Source of the DNA: Alphaproteobacteria bacterium
Lineage (GTDB): Bacteria; Pseudomonadota; Alphaproteobacteria; Bin65
Direction: 5' to 3'
Length of the DNA: 58,246 nt
Assembly: GCA_021776685.1 (NCBI GenBank)
Contig: JAJFFJ010000056.1
Location: forward strand, 1-58,246
Position numbers and translations under genes: made by a program. The stretch's first letter is position 1, and each line of letters opens with the position of its first letter. This document shows positions 9,116-23,554 of the stretch, piece after piece. The notes beneath the pieces are model-generated. The model did no database searches and had not been told where the DNA came from. It was given only the letters and a program-made list of their open reading frames with translations.

Positions 9116-9379
9116 GCCAAATGGTGTGTTTCGACCGATAGTCGCCGGTGAATCTTGTGGATTGCGGGGAGAAGCTACAGATTTTCGGCTAACCGGCTTT
9201 ATGGAAACGAAATTAGGGTGGCTGCGATCGCGGCGGGCGTGGATAACACCGTTGCCAACCCGGTGGACAGCACCACATCTATCACGACAGCGCCGATTGG
9301 GCGCTTGCAGGCGAGAGAAACCTTCCGGCATGTTCAACCTACGAGGCTCGCCGCTGAAGCACCGCCCAGAAGGCGCCCG

Positions 9380-10513
9380 ATGACCGCTCTGCGTTCTCCT
9401 CCCAAACCCGCAACGCGAGCGACGGGCATCCTCCCAGCGCAGGCCCTGCTGCGTGCCGTCAAGGCGGGACAGATCGCGTCAAGGGCGCCGATCGACGACC
9501 CCCAGGTTCAGCCGGCGAGCCTCGACCTCAGACTAGGCGATGTGGCTTACCGGGTACGGGCAAGTTTCCTGCCCGGCCCCGGCGCCACGGTCGAAGACAA
9601 AGTTGACCTCTACGGCCAGTATGAAATTGACCTGCGCGACGGCGCCGTTCTGGAGCGGGGTGGCGTCTATATTGTGCCGTTACAGGAGGCCCTCGACCTG
9701 CCGGAAGATCTGTCCGCCATTGCCAATCCCAAGAGTTCAACCGGGCGGCTCGACATCTTCACCCGGCTGATTACCAACAACTCCGCCGAATTCGACACGG
9801 TGCGCGCCGGCTACCAGGGCGGTCTCTATGCGGAAATCTCTCCCCGCACCTTCTCCATCAAGGTGCGCACGGGCACCCGCCTCAGCCAGCTTCGCATCCG
9901 CCGCGGATCACCAAGGCCCAGCGATGCCGCGCTCAAGCGCCTGCATGAACGTGACCCACTGGTAGACCGCGCGCCGGACGAAACCAACATCACCGAGGGT
10001 AAGCTGGGGGTCAGCATCGACCTCTCTGGCGATCCAGCCACCGGCCTGGTTGGCTATCGCGCCAAACGGGATGCTGGCGTCATCGACTATGACCAGCCGG
10101 GCGCCTACGACCCATTTGAATTCTGGGAACCGATCTACACCCGCAAAACCAAGTCGATCGTGCTCAATCTGGATGACTTCTACATCCTCGCATCCAAAGA
10201 GGCGATTTCCGTGCCGCCGGACCATGCAGCAGAGATGGTCGCCTACGACACCATGGTCGGCGAATTTCGCGTCCACTATGCGGGCTTTTTCGACCCCGGA
10301 TTCGGTCACCGAGAATTTGGCGGCGAAGGCAGCCGGGCTGTGCTGGAAGTGCGCCCCCACGAAGTGCCGTTCATGGTCGAAGATGGACAACTTGTGGGCA
10401 AACTGATCTACGAGCGGATGACAGAGATACCCGACCGCCTCTATGGTCAGGATCTCGGATCCAATTACCAGGCTCAGGGCCTGCGGTTGTCAAAGCACTT
10501 CCGGCAGGATTGA
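9380..10513 (+). CDS. dcd: 2'-deoxycytidine 5'-triphosphate deaminase, long two-domain form
   Basis: 377 residues, about twice the length of E. coli Dcd (~190). The alphaproteobacterial type carries two dUTPase-fold domains in tandem. Domain 1 has QPASLDLRLGDVAYRV and NPKSSTGRLDIFTRLITN, with S-S-T-G-R matching the Dcd active-site serine/arginine segment. Domain 2 repeats the fold with FRVHYAGFFDPGFGH and VPFMVEDGQLVGKLIYERM. It makes dUTP for thymidylate synthesis. Start ATG 9380 gives MTALRSPP; the upstream open frame covers the 264-base gap 9116-9379, in which I see nothing coding. Confidence 0.9.
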   Translation: MTALRSPPKPATRATGILPAQALLRAVKAGQIASRAPIDDPQVQPASLDLRLGDVAYRVRASFLPGPGATVEDKVDLYGQYEIDLRDGAVLERGGVYIVPLQEALDLPEDLSAIANPKSSTGRLDIFTRLITNNSAEFDTVRAGYQGGLYAEISPRTFSIKVRTGTRLSQLRIRRGSPRPSDAALKRLHERDPLVDRAPDETNITEGKLGVSIDLSGDPATGLVGYRAKRDAGVIDYDQPGAYDPFEFWEPIYTRKTKSIVLNLDDFYILASKEAISVPPDHAAEMVAYDTMVGEFRVHYAGFFDPGFGHREFGGEGSRAVLEVRPHEVPFMVEDGQLVGKLIYERMTEIPDRLYGQDLGSNYQAQGLRLSKHFRQD

Positions 10514-10540: not shown

Positions 10541-11389
10541 ATGACCGTCACCGATGAAGGCCATCTGGCGCTGTTCTGCGACTTCGAGAACATCGCGCTG
10601 GGCGTGCGTGACGCCAAATACGCCAAATTCGACATCAAACCGGTTCTTGAGCGGTTACTGCTGCGCGGCAGCATTGTAACGAAAAAAGCCTATTGCGACT
10701 GGGAGCGTTACAAGGATTTCAAGCGCACCATGCATGAGGCGGCGTTCGAGCTGATCGACATCCCCCATGTGCGTCAGGCGGGCAAGAATTCTGCCGATAT
10801 CCGCATGGTCGTGGATGCGCTCGACCTCTGCTACACGAAGGAGCATATCGACACCTTCGTGATCATCTCAGGGGACTCGGACTTCTCGCCGCTGGTCTCA
10901 AAGCTGCGCGAGAACGCGAAGACCGTAATCGGCGTTGGCGTAAAGAATTCCACGTCCGACCTGCTGATGAGCAACTGCGACGAGTTCATCTTCTACGACG
11001 ATTTGGTACGTGCAGAGGAAGCGCGTCAGAAACAGCCGGCACGCCAGGCCAAAAGCAGCAACCGAACCAAAAAACCGGCAGCCGCCAAGAAGGCGCCTGC
11101 GGATTCTGCCAGCGCAAAAGACAAAGATGCCCTGCTGCAGGAAGGCATCGACCTGGTGCTGACCACGGTGGAGGCGCTTCAGGCGGACAAGGGTGACACC
11201 GCGCTCATGTGGGGCTCGATGGTCAAACAGACCCTGAAGCGCCGCAAGCCGGGGTTCGACGAGTCCTATTATGGCTACAGGTCTTTCAGCGACCTGCTGG
11301 AGGAAGCCGAGGACCGCGGGTATCTGGACCTGGAACTGGACGAAAAATCCGGCGGCTACGTCATCCGCAAGCTGCATCCAGAAGAGTAG
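10541..11389 (+). CDS. NYN (PIN-like nuclease) domain protein with C-terminal OST-HTH/LOTUS domain
   Basis: 282 residues. The N-terminal NYN/LabA-like domain begins LALFCDFENIALGV. Its acidic residues D14, D95-region (SADIRMVVDALDL) and D113-region (FVIISGDSDFSPLV) fit the metal-binding set of PIN-like nucleases. A Lys/Ala-rich linker (about residues 165-200) leads to a LOTUS/OST-HTH winged helix at about 205-280 (WGSMVKQTLKRRKPGFDESYYGYRSFSDLLEEAEDRGYLDLE). LOTUS domains bind RNA, so an RNA-directed nuclease is likely; this is family knowledge, not shown here. It converges with the small-RNA array that starts 18 bases after its stop. Confidence 0.9.
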   Translation: MTVTDEGHLALFCDFENIALGVRDAKYAKFDIKPVLERLLLRGSIVTKKAYCDWERYKDFKRTMHEAAFELIDIPHVRQAGKNSADIRMVVDALDLCYTKEHIDTFVIISGDSDFSPLVSKLRENAKTVIGVGVKNSTSDLLMSNCDEFIFYDDLVRAEEARQKQPARQAKSSNRTKKPAAAKKAPADSASAKDKDALLQEGIDLVLTTVEALQADKGDTALMWGSMVKQTLKRRKPGFDESYYGYRSFSDLLEEAEDRGYLDLELDEKSGGYVIRKLHPEE

Positions 11390-11406: not shown

Positions 11407-11439
11407 AAAAAAAGCCCCGCCGGAGGGAACCGGCAGGGC
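11407..11439 (-). terminator. Rho-independent terminator of sRNA unit 1
   Basis: On the minus strand a 10-bp stem (11439-11430 with 11423-11414) and a 6-base loop are followed by seven T residues (11413-11407). One C-A position on the plus strand becomes a G-U wobble in the RNA, so the stem is kept. Confidence 0.8.
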
Positions 11440-11490
11440 TGAAGGCTCGGGGAGATCCAACAGGATCGGGAGACGGCTGTGTAAACAGCC
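11407..11490 (-). ncRNA. Predicted small RNA, array unit 1
   Basis: About 84 nt, read leftward from a predicted +1 at 11490. From 5' to 3': hairpin GGCUGU-UUAC-ACAGCC (11490-11475), single-stranded GUCUCCC (11474-11468), hairpin GAUCC-UGUU-GGAUC (11467-11454), UCUCCCC overlapping its end (11455-11449), then a terminator hairpin and a T-run ending at 11407. The body is identical to unit 2 apart from the terminator stem, where a G-U pair replaces G-C. No open reading frame fits. The CUCCC motifs could pair with Shine-Dalgarno sequences. Not matched to any named family from memory. Confidence 0.72.
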
Positions 11491-11540
11491 ACCCACACCC
11501 TAGCCCTGTGACGGGGCGCAAACTGTGATGGCCGTCACAC
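11414..11540 (-). repeat. Near-identical 127-bp repeat, copy 1 (sRNA unit 1 with its promoter)
   Basis: Copy 2 is at 11637-11763. The two differ at about four positions: the first base, one base in the terminator stem and two bases between the palindrome and the -10. The repeat covers terminator, RNA body, -10 and activator site, so duplication copied a whole transcription unit. The ~96 bases between copies are AT-richer and unrelated. Confidence 0.92.
11497..11539 (-). promoter_or_regulatory. CRP-type site and -10 element of sRNA unit 1
   Basis: Palindrome TGTGACGGCCATCACA on the minus strand (11539-11524) matches the CRP consensus TGTGA-N6-TCACA. It is followed by 21 bases and TAGGGT (11502-11497). 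If TAGGGT is the -10, the palindrome centre is at -41.5, the position of class II CRP activation. A further GTCACA half-site lies between them (about 11513-11508). Confidence 0.68.
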
Positions 11541-11629
11541 CTTGCCAAATAAAATTGAAAACCCCGAATATCCGCCGAATTTGAGCGCAGAGGCGCCTGA
11601 TTATGGGCAATTCATGTCCGCCCACGCCC

Positions 11630-11661
11630 AAAAAAAACCCCGCCGGAGGGAACCGGCGGGG
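11630..11661 (-). terminator. Rho-independent terminator of sRNA unit 2
   Basis: Stem CCCCGCCGG (minus strand, 11661-11653) pairs with CCGGCGGGG (11646-11638) around a 6-base loop. Eight T residues follow on the minus strand (11637-11630). Confidence 0.85.
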
Positions 11662-11713
11662 CTGAAGGCTCGGGGAGATCCAACAGGATCGGGAGACGGC
11701 TGTGTAAACAGCC
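11630..11713 (-). ncRNA. Predicted small RNA, array unit 2
   Basis: About 84 nt from a predicted +1 at 11713, read leftward, with the same plan as unit 1. A 5' hairpin GGCUGU-UUAC-ACAGCC starts exactly at +1. Then come GUCUCCC, a GAUCC-UGUU-GGAUC hairpin, UCUCCCC and a perfect 9-bp GC terminator stem with an eight-T run. Near-identity to unit 1 over 127 bases suggests a recent duplication or gene conversion. It lies in an otherwise gene-free stretch on both strands. Confidence 0.74.
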
Positions 11714-11763
11714 ACCCACACCCTAGCCCTGTGACGGCCCGCAAACTGTGATGGCCGTCACAC
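11637..11763 (-). repeat. Near-identical 127-bp repeat, copy 2 (sRNA unit 2 with its promoter)
   Basis: Partner of 11414-11540, with about four differences in 127 bases. No target-site duplication or transposase accompanies it, so a tandem duplication is more likely than an inserted element. Confidence 0.92.
11720..11762 (-). promoter_or_regulatory. CRP-type site and -10 element of sRNA unit 2
   Basis: Palindrome TGTGACGGCCATCACA (11762-11747, minus strand), 21 bases, then TAGGGT (11725-11720). The spacing is identical to units 1, 3 and 4. The predicted +1 at 11713 is the first G of the conserved hairpin. Confidence 0.7.
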
Positions 11764-11777
11764 ATTGGAAAATAAAT

Positions 11778-11811
11778 AAAAAAGACCCCGCCGGCGCGAT
11801 GGCCGGCGGGG
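11778..11811 (-). terminator. Rho-independent terminator of sRNA unit 3
   Basis: A perfect 10-bp stem (11811-11802 with 11795-11786, minus strand) with a 6-base loop is followed by TC and six T residues ending at 11778. Confidence 0.83.
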
Positions 11812-11863
11812 CAAGTTCCGGGGGAGGATCCAAACGGATCGGGAGACGGCTGAATGATCAGCC
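11778..11863 (-). ncRNA. Predicted small RNA, array unit 3 (diverged)
   Basis: About 86 nt from a predicted +1 at 11863. The 5' hairpin is GGCUGA-UCAU-UCAGCC. Against units 1 and 2 a U-A pair has become A-U and the loop has changed, so pairing is kept by a double change. GUCUCCC and a GAUCC-GUUU-GGAUC hairpin are kept, and CUCCCCC follows. The terminator stem is a different, longer GC stem (10 bp, loop changed), also preserved. Conserved structure with altered sequence is strong evidence for a functional RNA. Confidence 0.74.
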
Positions 11864-11869
11864 ATGCAC

Positions 11870-11912
11870 ACCCTACCAAGATGCAGCCCGGCCTTCAGTG
11901 ACCCGGCGCACA
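11870..11912 (-). promoter_or_regulatory. Degenerate CRP-type site and -10 element of sRNA unit 3
   Basis: Minus strand TGTGCGCCGGGTCACT (11912-11897) matches 8 of 10 positions of TGTGA-N6-TCACA. Exactly 21 bases later comes TAGGGT (11875-11870). The site is weaker than in the other units, but the geometry is the same. Confidence 0.58.
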
Positions 11913-11935
11913 CAGGTTGATTTTTTCTGAAGGCC
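11890..11935. repeat. 9-bp inverted repeat flanking the unit 3 activator site
   Basis: GGCCTTCAG at 11890-11898 and CTGAAGGCC at 11927-11935 are perfect inverted repeats 28 bases apart. They bracket the degenerate CRP-type site. They may be a second operator, a cruciform or chance; units 1, 2 and 4 lack them. Confidence 0.6.
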
Positions 11936-11949
11936 CACAGGATCCAGGC

Positions 11950-11980
11950 AAAAAGAAACCCCCGCTCGATTGAGCGGGGG
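11950..11980 (-). terminator. Rho-independent terminator of sRNA unit 4 and probably of the thiolase gene
   Basis: The 9-bp stem CCCCCGCTC/GAGCGGGGG (minus strand, 11980-11972 with 11967-11959) has a 4-base loop. It is followed by TTTC and five T residues ending at 11950. Confidence 0.85.
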
Positions 11981-12009
11981 TAAGGGAGATATGAGGTTCC
12001 AATTGAGGT
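11950..12009 (-). ncRNA. Predicted small RNA, array unit 4 (short, divergent)
   Basis: About 60 nt from a predicted +1 at 12009. The promoter plan is that of units 1-3, but the RNA body differs: the 5' GGCUG hairpin is missing. The AUCUCCCUU motif (11990-11982) is kept ahead of a 9-bp GC terminator stem with a TTTCTTTTT tail. It lies 84 bases after the stop of the thiolase gene on the same strand, with no other terminator between. It can therefore also act as the 3' end of the thiolase mRNA. Least certain of the four as an independent RNA. Confidence 0.58.
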
Positions 12010-12015
12010 GAGCCA

Positions 12016-12058
12016 AACCTACCCCCTTCGCGCCTCCTGAACTGTGACGGCCGTCACA
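12016..12058 (-). promoter_or_regulatory. Perfect CRP-type palindrome and -10 element of sRNA unit 4
   Basis: TGTGACGGCCGTCACA (12058-12043) is a perfect 16-bp palindrome. Exactly 21 bases later comes TAGGTT (12021-12016). The spacing repeats that of the other three units although the sequence between is unrelated. Confidence 0.68.
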
Positions 12059-12093: not shown

Positions 12094-13299
12094 TCAGACT
12101 TTCTCAAGCACCATGGAAATGCCCTGCCCTACGCCGATACACATGGTGCAAAGCGCATAGCGGCCGCCACGCTCCTGCAGCTCTCGGGCCGCCGTTGTCA
12201 CCAGGCGGGCACCGGACATCCCCAACGGATGGCCGAGAGCGATTGCGCCGCCGTTGGGATTCACATGCTCGGCATCGTCCGGCACACCCAACATGCGAAG
12301 AACCGCCAGGCCCTGCGCGGCGAACGCCTCGTTCAGCTCGATCACATCCATATCGCCGATTGTGAGGCCGAGTCTGTCGAGCAGCTTCTCCGACGCCGGC
12401 GCCGGGCCGATCCCCATGATCCGCGGCGCGACACCTGCGGTCCCTGCCCCCAGTACCCGCGCCATCGGCGTCAGGCCATGTTTTTCGACAGCGGCGGCTG
12501 ACGCCACAAACATCGCCGCCGCGCCATCATTGACGCCGGAGGCGTTGCCCGCAGTCACCGTGCCGCCGTCACGGAAGGGCGTGCCCAATTTTGCCAGCTT
12601 GTCGATAGTGGTATCGCCTCGGGGGTGCTCATCCGTGTCGACCACCACCGGATCGCCGCGCCGCTGCGGCACGCTGACGGCCACGATCTCCTTCGCCAGG
12701 CGCCCGTTTTCCTGGGCGGCCACGGCCCGTAATTGGCTCCTCAGCGCGAACTGGTCCTGATCTTCCCGGGACACCTGGAATTCCTCGGCCACATTCTCAG
12801 CCGTTTCGGGCATTGAGTCAGTGCCATACTGCTGCTTCATCATCTTGTTGACGAAGCGCCAGCCGATGGTCGTGTCGTGGATCTCCGCATTGCGGCTGAA
12901 GGCCGCCTCCGCCTTGCCCATGACGAAAGGCGCCCGTGACATGCTTTCCACACCGCCCGCGATTGTCAGTTCCGCGTCACCCGCTTTCACCGCATGGGCG
13001 CAATTGGCAACTGCATTCATGCCCGAGCCACAAAGACGATTGACCGTCGCCCCCGGCACCTGCTCCGGCAGCCCCGCTAGCAACAAAGACATTCGAGCCA
13101 CATTGCGATTGTCTTCGCCTGCCTGGTTCGCACAGCCATAGACAAGGTCGTCGATGTCTGCTGCCGAAACCTGGGGGTTGCGCGCGATGAGTTCGCGAAT
13201 CGGTACTGCGCCAAGGTCGTCTGCCCGTACTCCGCTGAGCGCGCCGCCATACCGTCCGATGGGCGTGCGGATCGGATCACAGATAAAGGCGTCGGACAT
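12094..13299 (-). CDS. Thiolase, 3-oxoadipyl-CoA thiolase type (PaaJ/PcaF-like)
   Basis: 401 residues, the usual length for PaaJ/PcaF. Acyl-enzyme Cys lies in NRLCGSGMNAV near residue 90. The C-terminal NEAFAAQ, GGAIALGHPLGMSGAR and CTMCIGVGQG motifs supply the catalytic His and second Cys. The segment YGCANQAGEDNRNVARM is typical of the oxoadipyl-CoA branch. It would cleave 3-oxoadipyl-CoA to succinyl-CoA and acetyl-CoA. PaaI-, PaaH- and PaaG-type genes within 7 kb support a role in aromatic ring degradation, though a general acetyl-CoA acyltransferase is possible. AAGGAA precedes the ATG. Confidence 0.9.
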   Translation of the reverse strand: MSDAFICDPIRTPIGRYGGALSGVRADDLGAVPIRELIARNPQVSAADIDDLVYGCANQAGEDNRNVARMSLLLAGLPEQVPGATVNRLCGSGMNAVANCAHAVKAGDAELTIAGGVESMSRAPFVMGKAEAAFSRNAEIHDTTIGWRFVNKMMKQQYGTDSMPETAENVAEEFQVSREDQDQFALRSQLRAVAAQENGRLAKEIVAVSVPQRRGDPVVVDTDEHPRGDTTIDKLAKLGTPFRDGGTVTAGNASGVNDGAAAMFVASAAAVEKHGLTPMARVLGAGTAGVAPRIMGIGPAPASEKLLDRLGLTIGDMDVIELNEAFAAQGLAVLRMLGVPDDAEHVNPNGGAIALGHPLGMSGARLVTTAARELQERGGRYALCTMCIGVGQGISMVLEKV

Positions 13300-23215: not shown

Positions 23216-23554
23216 TTGCTGGGGATCCTTTAGTGATTTGCGGTGAAAGCGCCGTCCCTGACGCCCGCCTGATCTGACTTCGCGGCCCGCATGGTCGATA
23301 ATGCACAGGGAATGTGGCGATACAAGGAGATCGACGCAATTCACGGCTTCGCGAGAGTGTTGAACCGGCGAGGCTGTATTCGCCTCCAAATCGCCCCAAT
23401 CCGCCGCGGGAGCGGTCGTTGACACCCCTGCCACATCCACCTATCTGTGATCGTAGTCACTTCAGCAAATCGGTGTGTCTGCGAAGGTGCGCTCCGGTCG
23501 GGCCACGCGCGCCATTCATGCCTCCACACCCACATCAAAAACAGGGGTTCCCTC
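23216..23554. other. 339-base spacer between divergent ppiC-type gene and secA
   Basis: Non-coding. It holds a good secA promoter and a CRP-type palindrome (listed separately). Nothing structured is obvious in the half nearest the isomerase gene. Confidence 0.65.
23419..23461 (+). promoter_or_regulatory. secA promoter overlapped by a CRP-type palindrome
   Basis: TTGACA (23419-23424), a 17-base spacer and TATCTG (23442-23447) form a good sigma-70-type promoter, about 100 bases before the secA start. TGTGATCGTAGTCACT (23446-23461) matches TGTGA-N6-TCACA at 9 of 10 positions. Its centre falls near +1, where binding would repress. The half-sites match those in the small-RNA array. Confidence 0.55.

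Follow-up and report, generated by a model that had tools for sequence, protein, structure and literature searches.

What fills the 704-bp gene-free gap between the stop codons of a thiolase gene and an NYN-domain gene in the alphaproteobacterial genome studied here? The original prediction for the window (the whole stretch of DNA analysed, 58,246 nucleotides) placed four tandem small-RNA (sRNA) genes in this gap, each under its own CRP-type promoter, and recognised no family for them. Whether these units are genuine genes, how they would be expressed and which known sRNAs they resemble are the questions that the locus raises. Judged from its sequence, the region is a real array of sRNA genes.

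Anatomy of the array

The thiolase gene (12094-13299, minus strand) lies upstream of the array, the NYN-domain gene (10541-11389, plus strand) is convergent with it at the other edge of the gap, and a dCTP deaminase gene with DCD_N and DCD_C domains is found at 9155-10513 (plus strand). The NYN-domain protein shows a weak C-terminal OST-HTH/LOTUS match, and within the order a close relative (74%) was found only in genome G001.

Four minus-strand units are indeed present in a row at 11407-12058, and in all four a -10 hexamer stands 21 nt after a CRP-type site and is followed by an RNA body and a terminator hairpin with a T-run. The claim that every unit has a CRP-type palindrome holds in part: the 16-bp palindrome TGTGACGGCC[A/G]TCACA is exact in units 1, 2 and 4, whereas the site of unit 3 is degenerate. 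Units 1 and 2 both carry TGTGACGGCCATCACA as an exact match (11524-11539 and 11747-11762; all unit features are on the minus strand), followed by the hexamer TAGGGT (11497-11502 and 11720-11725) and by RNAs of 84 nt (11407-11490 and 11630-11713) with terminators at 11413-11440 and 11636-11663; the unit 2 RNA runs from a 5' hairpin through GUCUCCC, a second hairpin and UCUCCCC to the terminator, and the unit 1 RNA is near-identical to it. In unit 3, the site TGTGCGCCGGGTCACT (11897-11912) matches 8 of the 10 core bases and is a poor palindrome, yet the spacer to TAGGGT (11870-11875) is again exactly 21 nt; its RNA of about 86 nt (11778-11863) consists of the 5' hairpin GGCUG..CAGCC, GUCUCCC, the hairpin GAUCC..GGAUC, CCUCCCCC and the terminator (11785-11812). 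Unit 4 has the palindrome TGTGACGGCCGTCACA (12043-12058), the hexamer TAGGTT 21 nt after it (12016-12021) and an RNA of about 60 nt (11950-12009) with UCUCCC, a weak or absent 5' hairpin and a terminator at 11958-11981. These predicted lengths agree with the 60-86 nt proposed originally, and the proposed 5' ends (11490, 11713, 11863 and 12009) are the same +1 positions that follow from the promoter geometry.

The suggested gradient of divergence is also evident from sequence comparison. Units 1 and 2 show 95% identity over 148 nt, units 1-3 have a common 54-nt core at 81-100%, and unit 4 keeps the promoter and terminator of the other units with a body that is almost entirely different. The predicted RNAs of units 1, 2, 3 and 4 fold 5.3, 5.4, 4.7 and 3.8 s.d. 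better than shuffles, respectively. A small-peptide reading of the units was rejected, because no convincing start site or reading frame was found in the unit RNAs.

Promoter geometry and the CUCCC motif

CRP-type palindromes with at most three mismatches have nine matches in the window versus 2.06 expected, and none of 100 shuffles reaches nine. With the hexamer set as -12 to -7, the palindrome is centred at -41.5, where TGTGA-N6-TCACA is exact in units 1, 2 and 4 and degenerate in unit 3; this is the class II CRP position in E. coli. To the four window units we aligned one dispersed unit of the same genome (C76), four units of G003 and three of G001. The succession of 16-bp site, 21 nt, hexamer and 6 nt is exact in 12 of these 12 units, a count that is not fully independent given two near-copy pairs (units 1/2 and two G001 units) and a +1 alignment and geometry read off the same 12 units. 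Two features never vary: A at position -11 and TCAC in the right half-site. No -35/-10 sigma-70 promoter was found in the array region, as is expected if the promoters are activator-dependent; TAGGGT is a weak -10, and G001 units 2 and 3 read CACAAA at the hexamer. Moreover, the predicted +1 in units 1-3 is the first base of the hairpin GGCUG-N6-CAGCC, and 11 of the 12 units have a helix of 5 bp or more that begins no more than 3 nt away from the predicted +1; offsets of at least 3 nt give at most 4 units, and shuffles give a mean of 1.25 and a maximum of 5.

Candidate regulators are cNMP-binding Crp-like proteins encoded by the genome, among which the C71 regulator combines a cNMP-binding domain with RETVAR in the recognition helix, close to RE(T/M)VGR, a motif that is reported for the main cluster of Crp proteins (PMC10127613). 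When the promoter pattern was relaxed, more CRP + 21 + TAGG sites came to light in the same genome, in front of protein genes, so the layout is not unique to sRNAs. Such sites stand at L096:1448, L097:1942, L099:1943 and L100:2011 (C48, C65, C82 and C138); several of the genes behind them have signal-peptide-like starts, and none of the three tested has a Pfam match. These protein genes probably belong to the same regulon as the sRNA units. An isolated near-perfect CRP-type site, TGTGATCGTAGTCACT, is located at 23446-23461 of the window, upstream of a plus-strand gene.

The RNA bodies have a conspicuous motif in common. Between +1 and the terminator of the 12 units, CTCCC occurs 22 times versus 4.4 in shuffles (0 of 2000 reach 22), an enrichment of about five-fold; CUCCC could stem from C-rich RNA, and the shuffles preserve base composition. 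Units 1-3 carry it twice, flanking the second hairpin GAUCC-N4-GGAUC, and the corresponding second hairpin of the C76 unit reads UUCCAU-CCCG-AUGGAA. The complement of CUCCC, GGGAG, is a ribosome-binding-site sequence.

Distribution in relatives and a second body type

The dispersed unit, a fifth outside the array (G000:C76:5485-5609; L095:1986-2110, minus strand), has a perfect CRP site, 21 nt, TAGGCT, a CUCCC body and a terminator, and lies about 470 bp from an FAA-hydrolase gene. The pattern of CRP site, 21 nt, TANNNT and CTCCC was found at four places in this genome (0 for the reversed-pattern control) and once each in 2 of 384 other genomes of the class. A covariance model (R2) was trained on window units 1-3, the unit at C76 and one from G003; it recovered unit 4, which had been left out of it, at 39.6 bits, and in relatives it detected three further G003 units at 33-37 bits, none of them in the model; another model, R1, was discarded because it had paired promoter bases. 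When the whole class was searched with R2, matches also fell on true alpha-r8 genes and on ordinary terminators. Among 60 relatives, a search by plain DNA similarity gave mostly terminator look-alikes but led to the G001 array and an RNA in G007. Across 84,980 species genomes, the body pattern in its exact form had a single match, inside a Gemmatimonadetes multicopper-oxidase-like gene, which we judged to be due to chance.

The array of G003, a member of the sister genus, comprises four units between an orthologous thiolase gene (75% identical) and an orthologous dCTP deaminase gene and is thus syntenic with the array in the window, where the NYN gene intervenes between array and deaminase. 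The NYN gene is absent from this interval in G003. In the seven genomes of genus g3 that were read, no array was found beside the thiolase gene. Sequence comparison and the covariance models show that promoter geometry is kept in relatives, and so are the hairpins, whose conservation the original prediction had set as a test; the RNA sequences themselves have diverged strongly.

A second body type, in which a terminator follows a single long hairpin whose loop is C-rich (CUCCCC), is found behind the same kind of promoter in G001, G003, G005 and six g3 genomes. Its loci include L183-L188 (genus g3), L033:5780-6315, L145 and L189. It is present in a single copy in genus g3, is located upstream of a gene for glucose/sorbosone dehydrogenase in G007, G008 and G010, and forms three tandem copies upstream of such a gene in G001, where the gene was recognised by eye. 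Its stem shows compensatory changes across genera (G-C to A-U and C-G to U-A), with 93% of cells paired; shifting the partner by 1-3 columns lowers this proportion to 21-47%. Within the order, a model of this type (R3) detects it in 9 of 11 genomes; two of these, G003 and G004, had no part in building the model. R3 also scores 45-46 bits on window units 1 and 2, where its own stem is broken, and this score therefore comes from the promoter, CUCCC and terminator. Common descent of the two bodies is thus not supported by this match. Counting this genome and both body types, an sRNA of this plan is found in 10 of the 11 genomes of the order.

Outside the order, the same plan seems to recur in two single RNAs, each from another family of the class: G284 has a CRP site, 21 nt, TAGGGT and a hairpin with CUUCCCCC (L172:1501-1624), and G320 has a CRP site, 21 nt, CATCTT, CCCUCCUCCC and a terminator (L190:1501-1610). 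It is conceivable, and we put it forward tentatively, that Alphaproteobacteria have a class of anti-Shine-Dalgarno sRNAs wired to CRP, whose conserved part is the promoter together with a short pairing motif, and that the folds around this part turn over freely, with at least two folds in one promoter cassette in one order and further single cases in two other families (G284 and G320).

Proposed action and relation to known sRNAs

Unit anatomy, promoter geometry, the match between predicted start and hairpin, the enriched motif, and both conservation and synteny in other genera make it likely that the four units are independently transcribed sRNA genes, each activated by cAMP-CRP at a class II position and blocking ribosome binding via CUCCC. 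We infer their transcription, CRP binding, cAMP response, a role of Hfq and their targets as follows. A cAMP-CRP-type regulator at -41.5 would stand in for the -35 element and activate each unit, so that all units would be switched on together at high cAMP levels, a state that probably goes with a poor carbon supply. Each RNA of 60-86 nt would begin with a stable 5' hairpin (except in unit 4) and end with its own terminator; both may guard the RNA, which would expose one or two C/U-rich CUCCC motifs. Through CUCCC the RNAs would then base-pair with target mRNAs at GGGAG-type ribosome-binding sites, with Hfq as the probable platform, and repress translation of the targets; the copies may set the dose or divide the targets.

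When the window and the loci of relatives were scanned with Rfam, no family reached its gathering score, which agrees with the earlier failure to recognise one. The analogy drawn originally with AbcR and cuckoo RNAs is apt for function; the nearest match in sequence is a family that it did not name, alpha-r8 (RF00519; MmgR of Sinorhizobium, SisA-D of Caulobacter). We consider it unlikely, though worth weighing, that the units are divergent alpha-r8 members that were tandemly expanded and placed under CRP control. RF00519 scores 30.2, 25.0 and 24.8 bits on units 2, 3 and 1 and 28.3 bits on the C76 unit, aligning with the hairpin, CUCCC, ACUU and terminator, and R2 conversely matches true alpha-r8 genes, with 16.5 bits on the one of this genome. 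Alpha-r8 RNAs are also about 75-85 nt long, have a hairpin, a CUCCC-type anti-SD stretch and a rho-independent terminator, the last being present in the units too, and are multicopy and sometimes adjacent (PMC12559287). All unit scores nevertheless stay below the gathering score of 41 bits, and low-score RF00519 matches occur in 13 of 14 control genomes, so weak matches mean little. The single-stranded 10-mer UUUCCUCCCU that follows a weak hairpin in alpha-r8 is absent from the units, which carry UCUCCCC, CCUCCCCC or UCUCCCU in its stead, and units 1-3 have an extra 5' hairpin. Nor is the array next to a gene for N-formylglutamate amidohydrolase, the neighbour of one alpha-r8 copy in most species; its neighbours are the thiolase and NYN genes. 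Moreover, a true alpha-r8 gene exists elsewhere in the genome, at C102; it scores 53 bits, contains the 10-mer UUUCCUCCCU and lacks a CRP site in front. RF00519 exceeds its cut-off in 9 of the 11 genomes of the order, in support of assigning the organism to the Alphaproteobacteria. The SisA-D promoters have no common motif (PMC12559287), in contrast to the common CRP class II promoter of the array units. In another family, G213:C95 (L178:1301-1610) carries two tandem alpha-r8-like genes with a UUUCCUCCCU-type 10-mer, about 195 nt apart.

It is far less probable that the four RNAs, instead of coming from four promoters, are cut out of a single long transcript. The alphaproteobacterial tandem anti-SD RNAs CcsR1-4 are cut by RNase E from the ccaF1 transcript (PMC10253847), and the thiolase gene lies upstream of the array on the same strand. 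However, a separate terminator and a separate CRP/-10 arrangement are found in each unit, and in units 1-3 this arrangement agrees with the position of the 5' hairpin. Cuckoo RNAs, CcsR and alpha-r14 NfeR1 resemble the array in a repeated unpaired anti-SD motif, divergent stems and a tandem or multicopy arrangement, but in those RNAs CCUCCUCCC stands in the loop of every hairpin, and it is absent from the four window units. CcsR is processed from a DUF1127 operon and NfeR1 is under LsrB/NtrC, unlike the array units, beside which no DUF1127 gene was found (the neighbours again being thiolase and NYN). It is scarcely credible that the array holds no functional RNAs and that its repeats serve as CRP decoys or are terminator remnants of duplication. 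Units 1 and 2 did arise by recent duplication, and palindromes of the CRP type are able to titrate a regulator, but the 21-nt spacing, -10, 5' hairpin, CUCCC and terminator are kept in diverged copies and in other genera, and one stem shows compensatory changes.

On the preferred reading of four CRP-activated sRNA genes, the array has a wider meaning. In enterobacteria, CRP controls sRNAs such as CyaR, and in the open-access literature we found CRP-dependent sRNAs described by that name only from enterobacteria. Tandem anti-Shine-Dalgarno sibling sRNAs are already a known kind in Alphaproteobacteria; if true, the array would add several sibling alphaproteobacterial sRNAs that share a single CRP promoter layout and exist alongside a separate alpha-r8 gene. 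With one to five copies and varied RNA bodies behind one promoter, it belongs to a natural series that makes testable why bacteria keep sibling sRNAs and whether promoter and pairing motif can stay conserved while an RNA fold is replaced.

Among known systems, AbcR1/AbcR2 (alpha-r15) are likewise sibling sRNAs encoded in tandem within a single intergenic region, and they have two CU-rich anti-SD motifs (PMC7143759), but they are 114-120 nt long, and the AbcR1 promoter has an LsrB binding site (PMC10746234). Alpha-r15 gave no match in the Rfam scans at the gathering score or at E<=10 (37 weak matches). AbcR, NfeR1 and SisA are precedents in this class for anti-SD pairing (PMC7143759, PMC10746234, PMC12559287). 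The nearest functional precedent for CRP activation is CyaR of enterobacteria, a CRP-cAMP-activated sRNA listed with anti-SD sRNAs (PMC9002310, PMC3927594), which differs in being a single gene of unrelated sequence and in whose family no Rfam match of the window falls. Membership in alpha-r8, AbcR or the cuckoo RNAs fails on the defining features, and a likeness in the predicted mode of action remains. From these comparisons we read the units as a new, fast-evolving, lineage-specific sRNA group outside Rfam, which would act like CyaR and AbcR.
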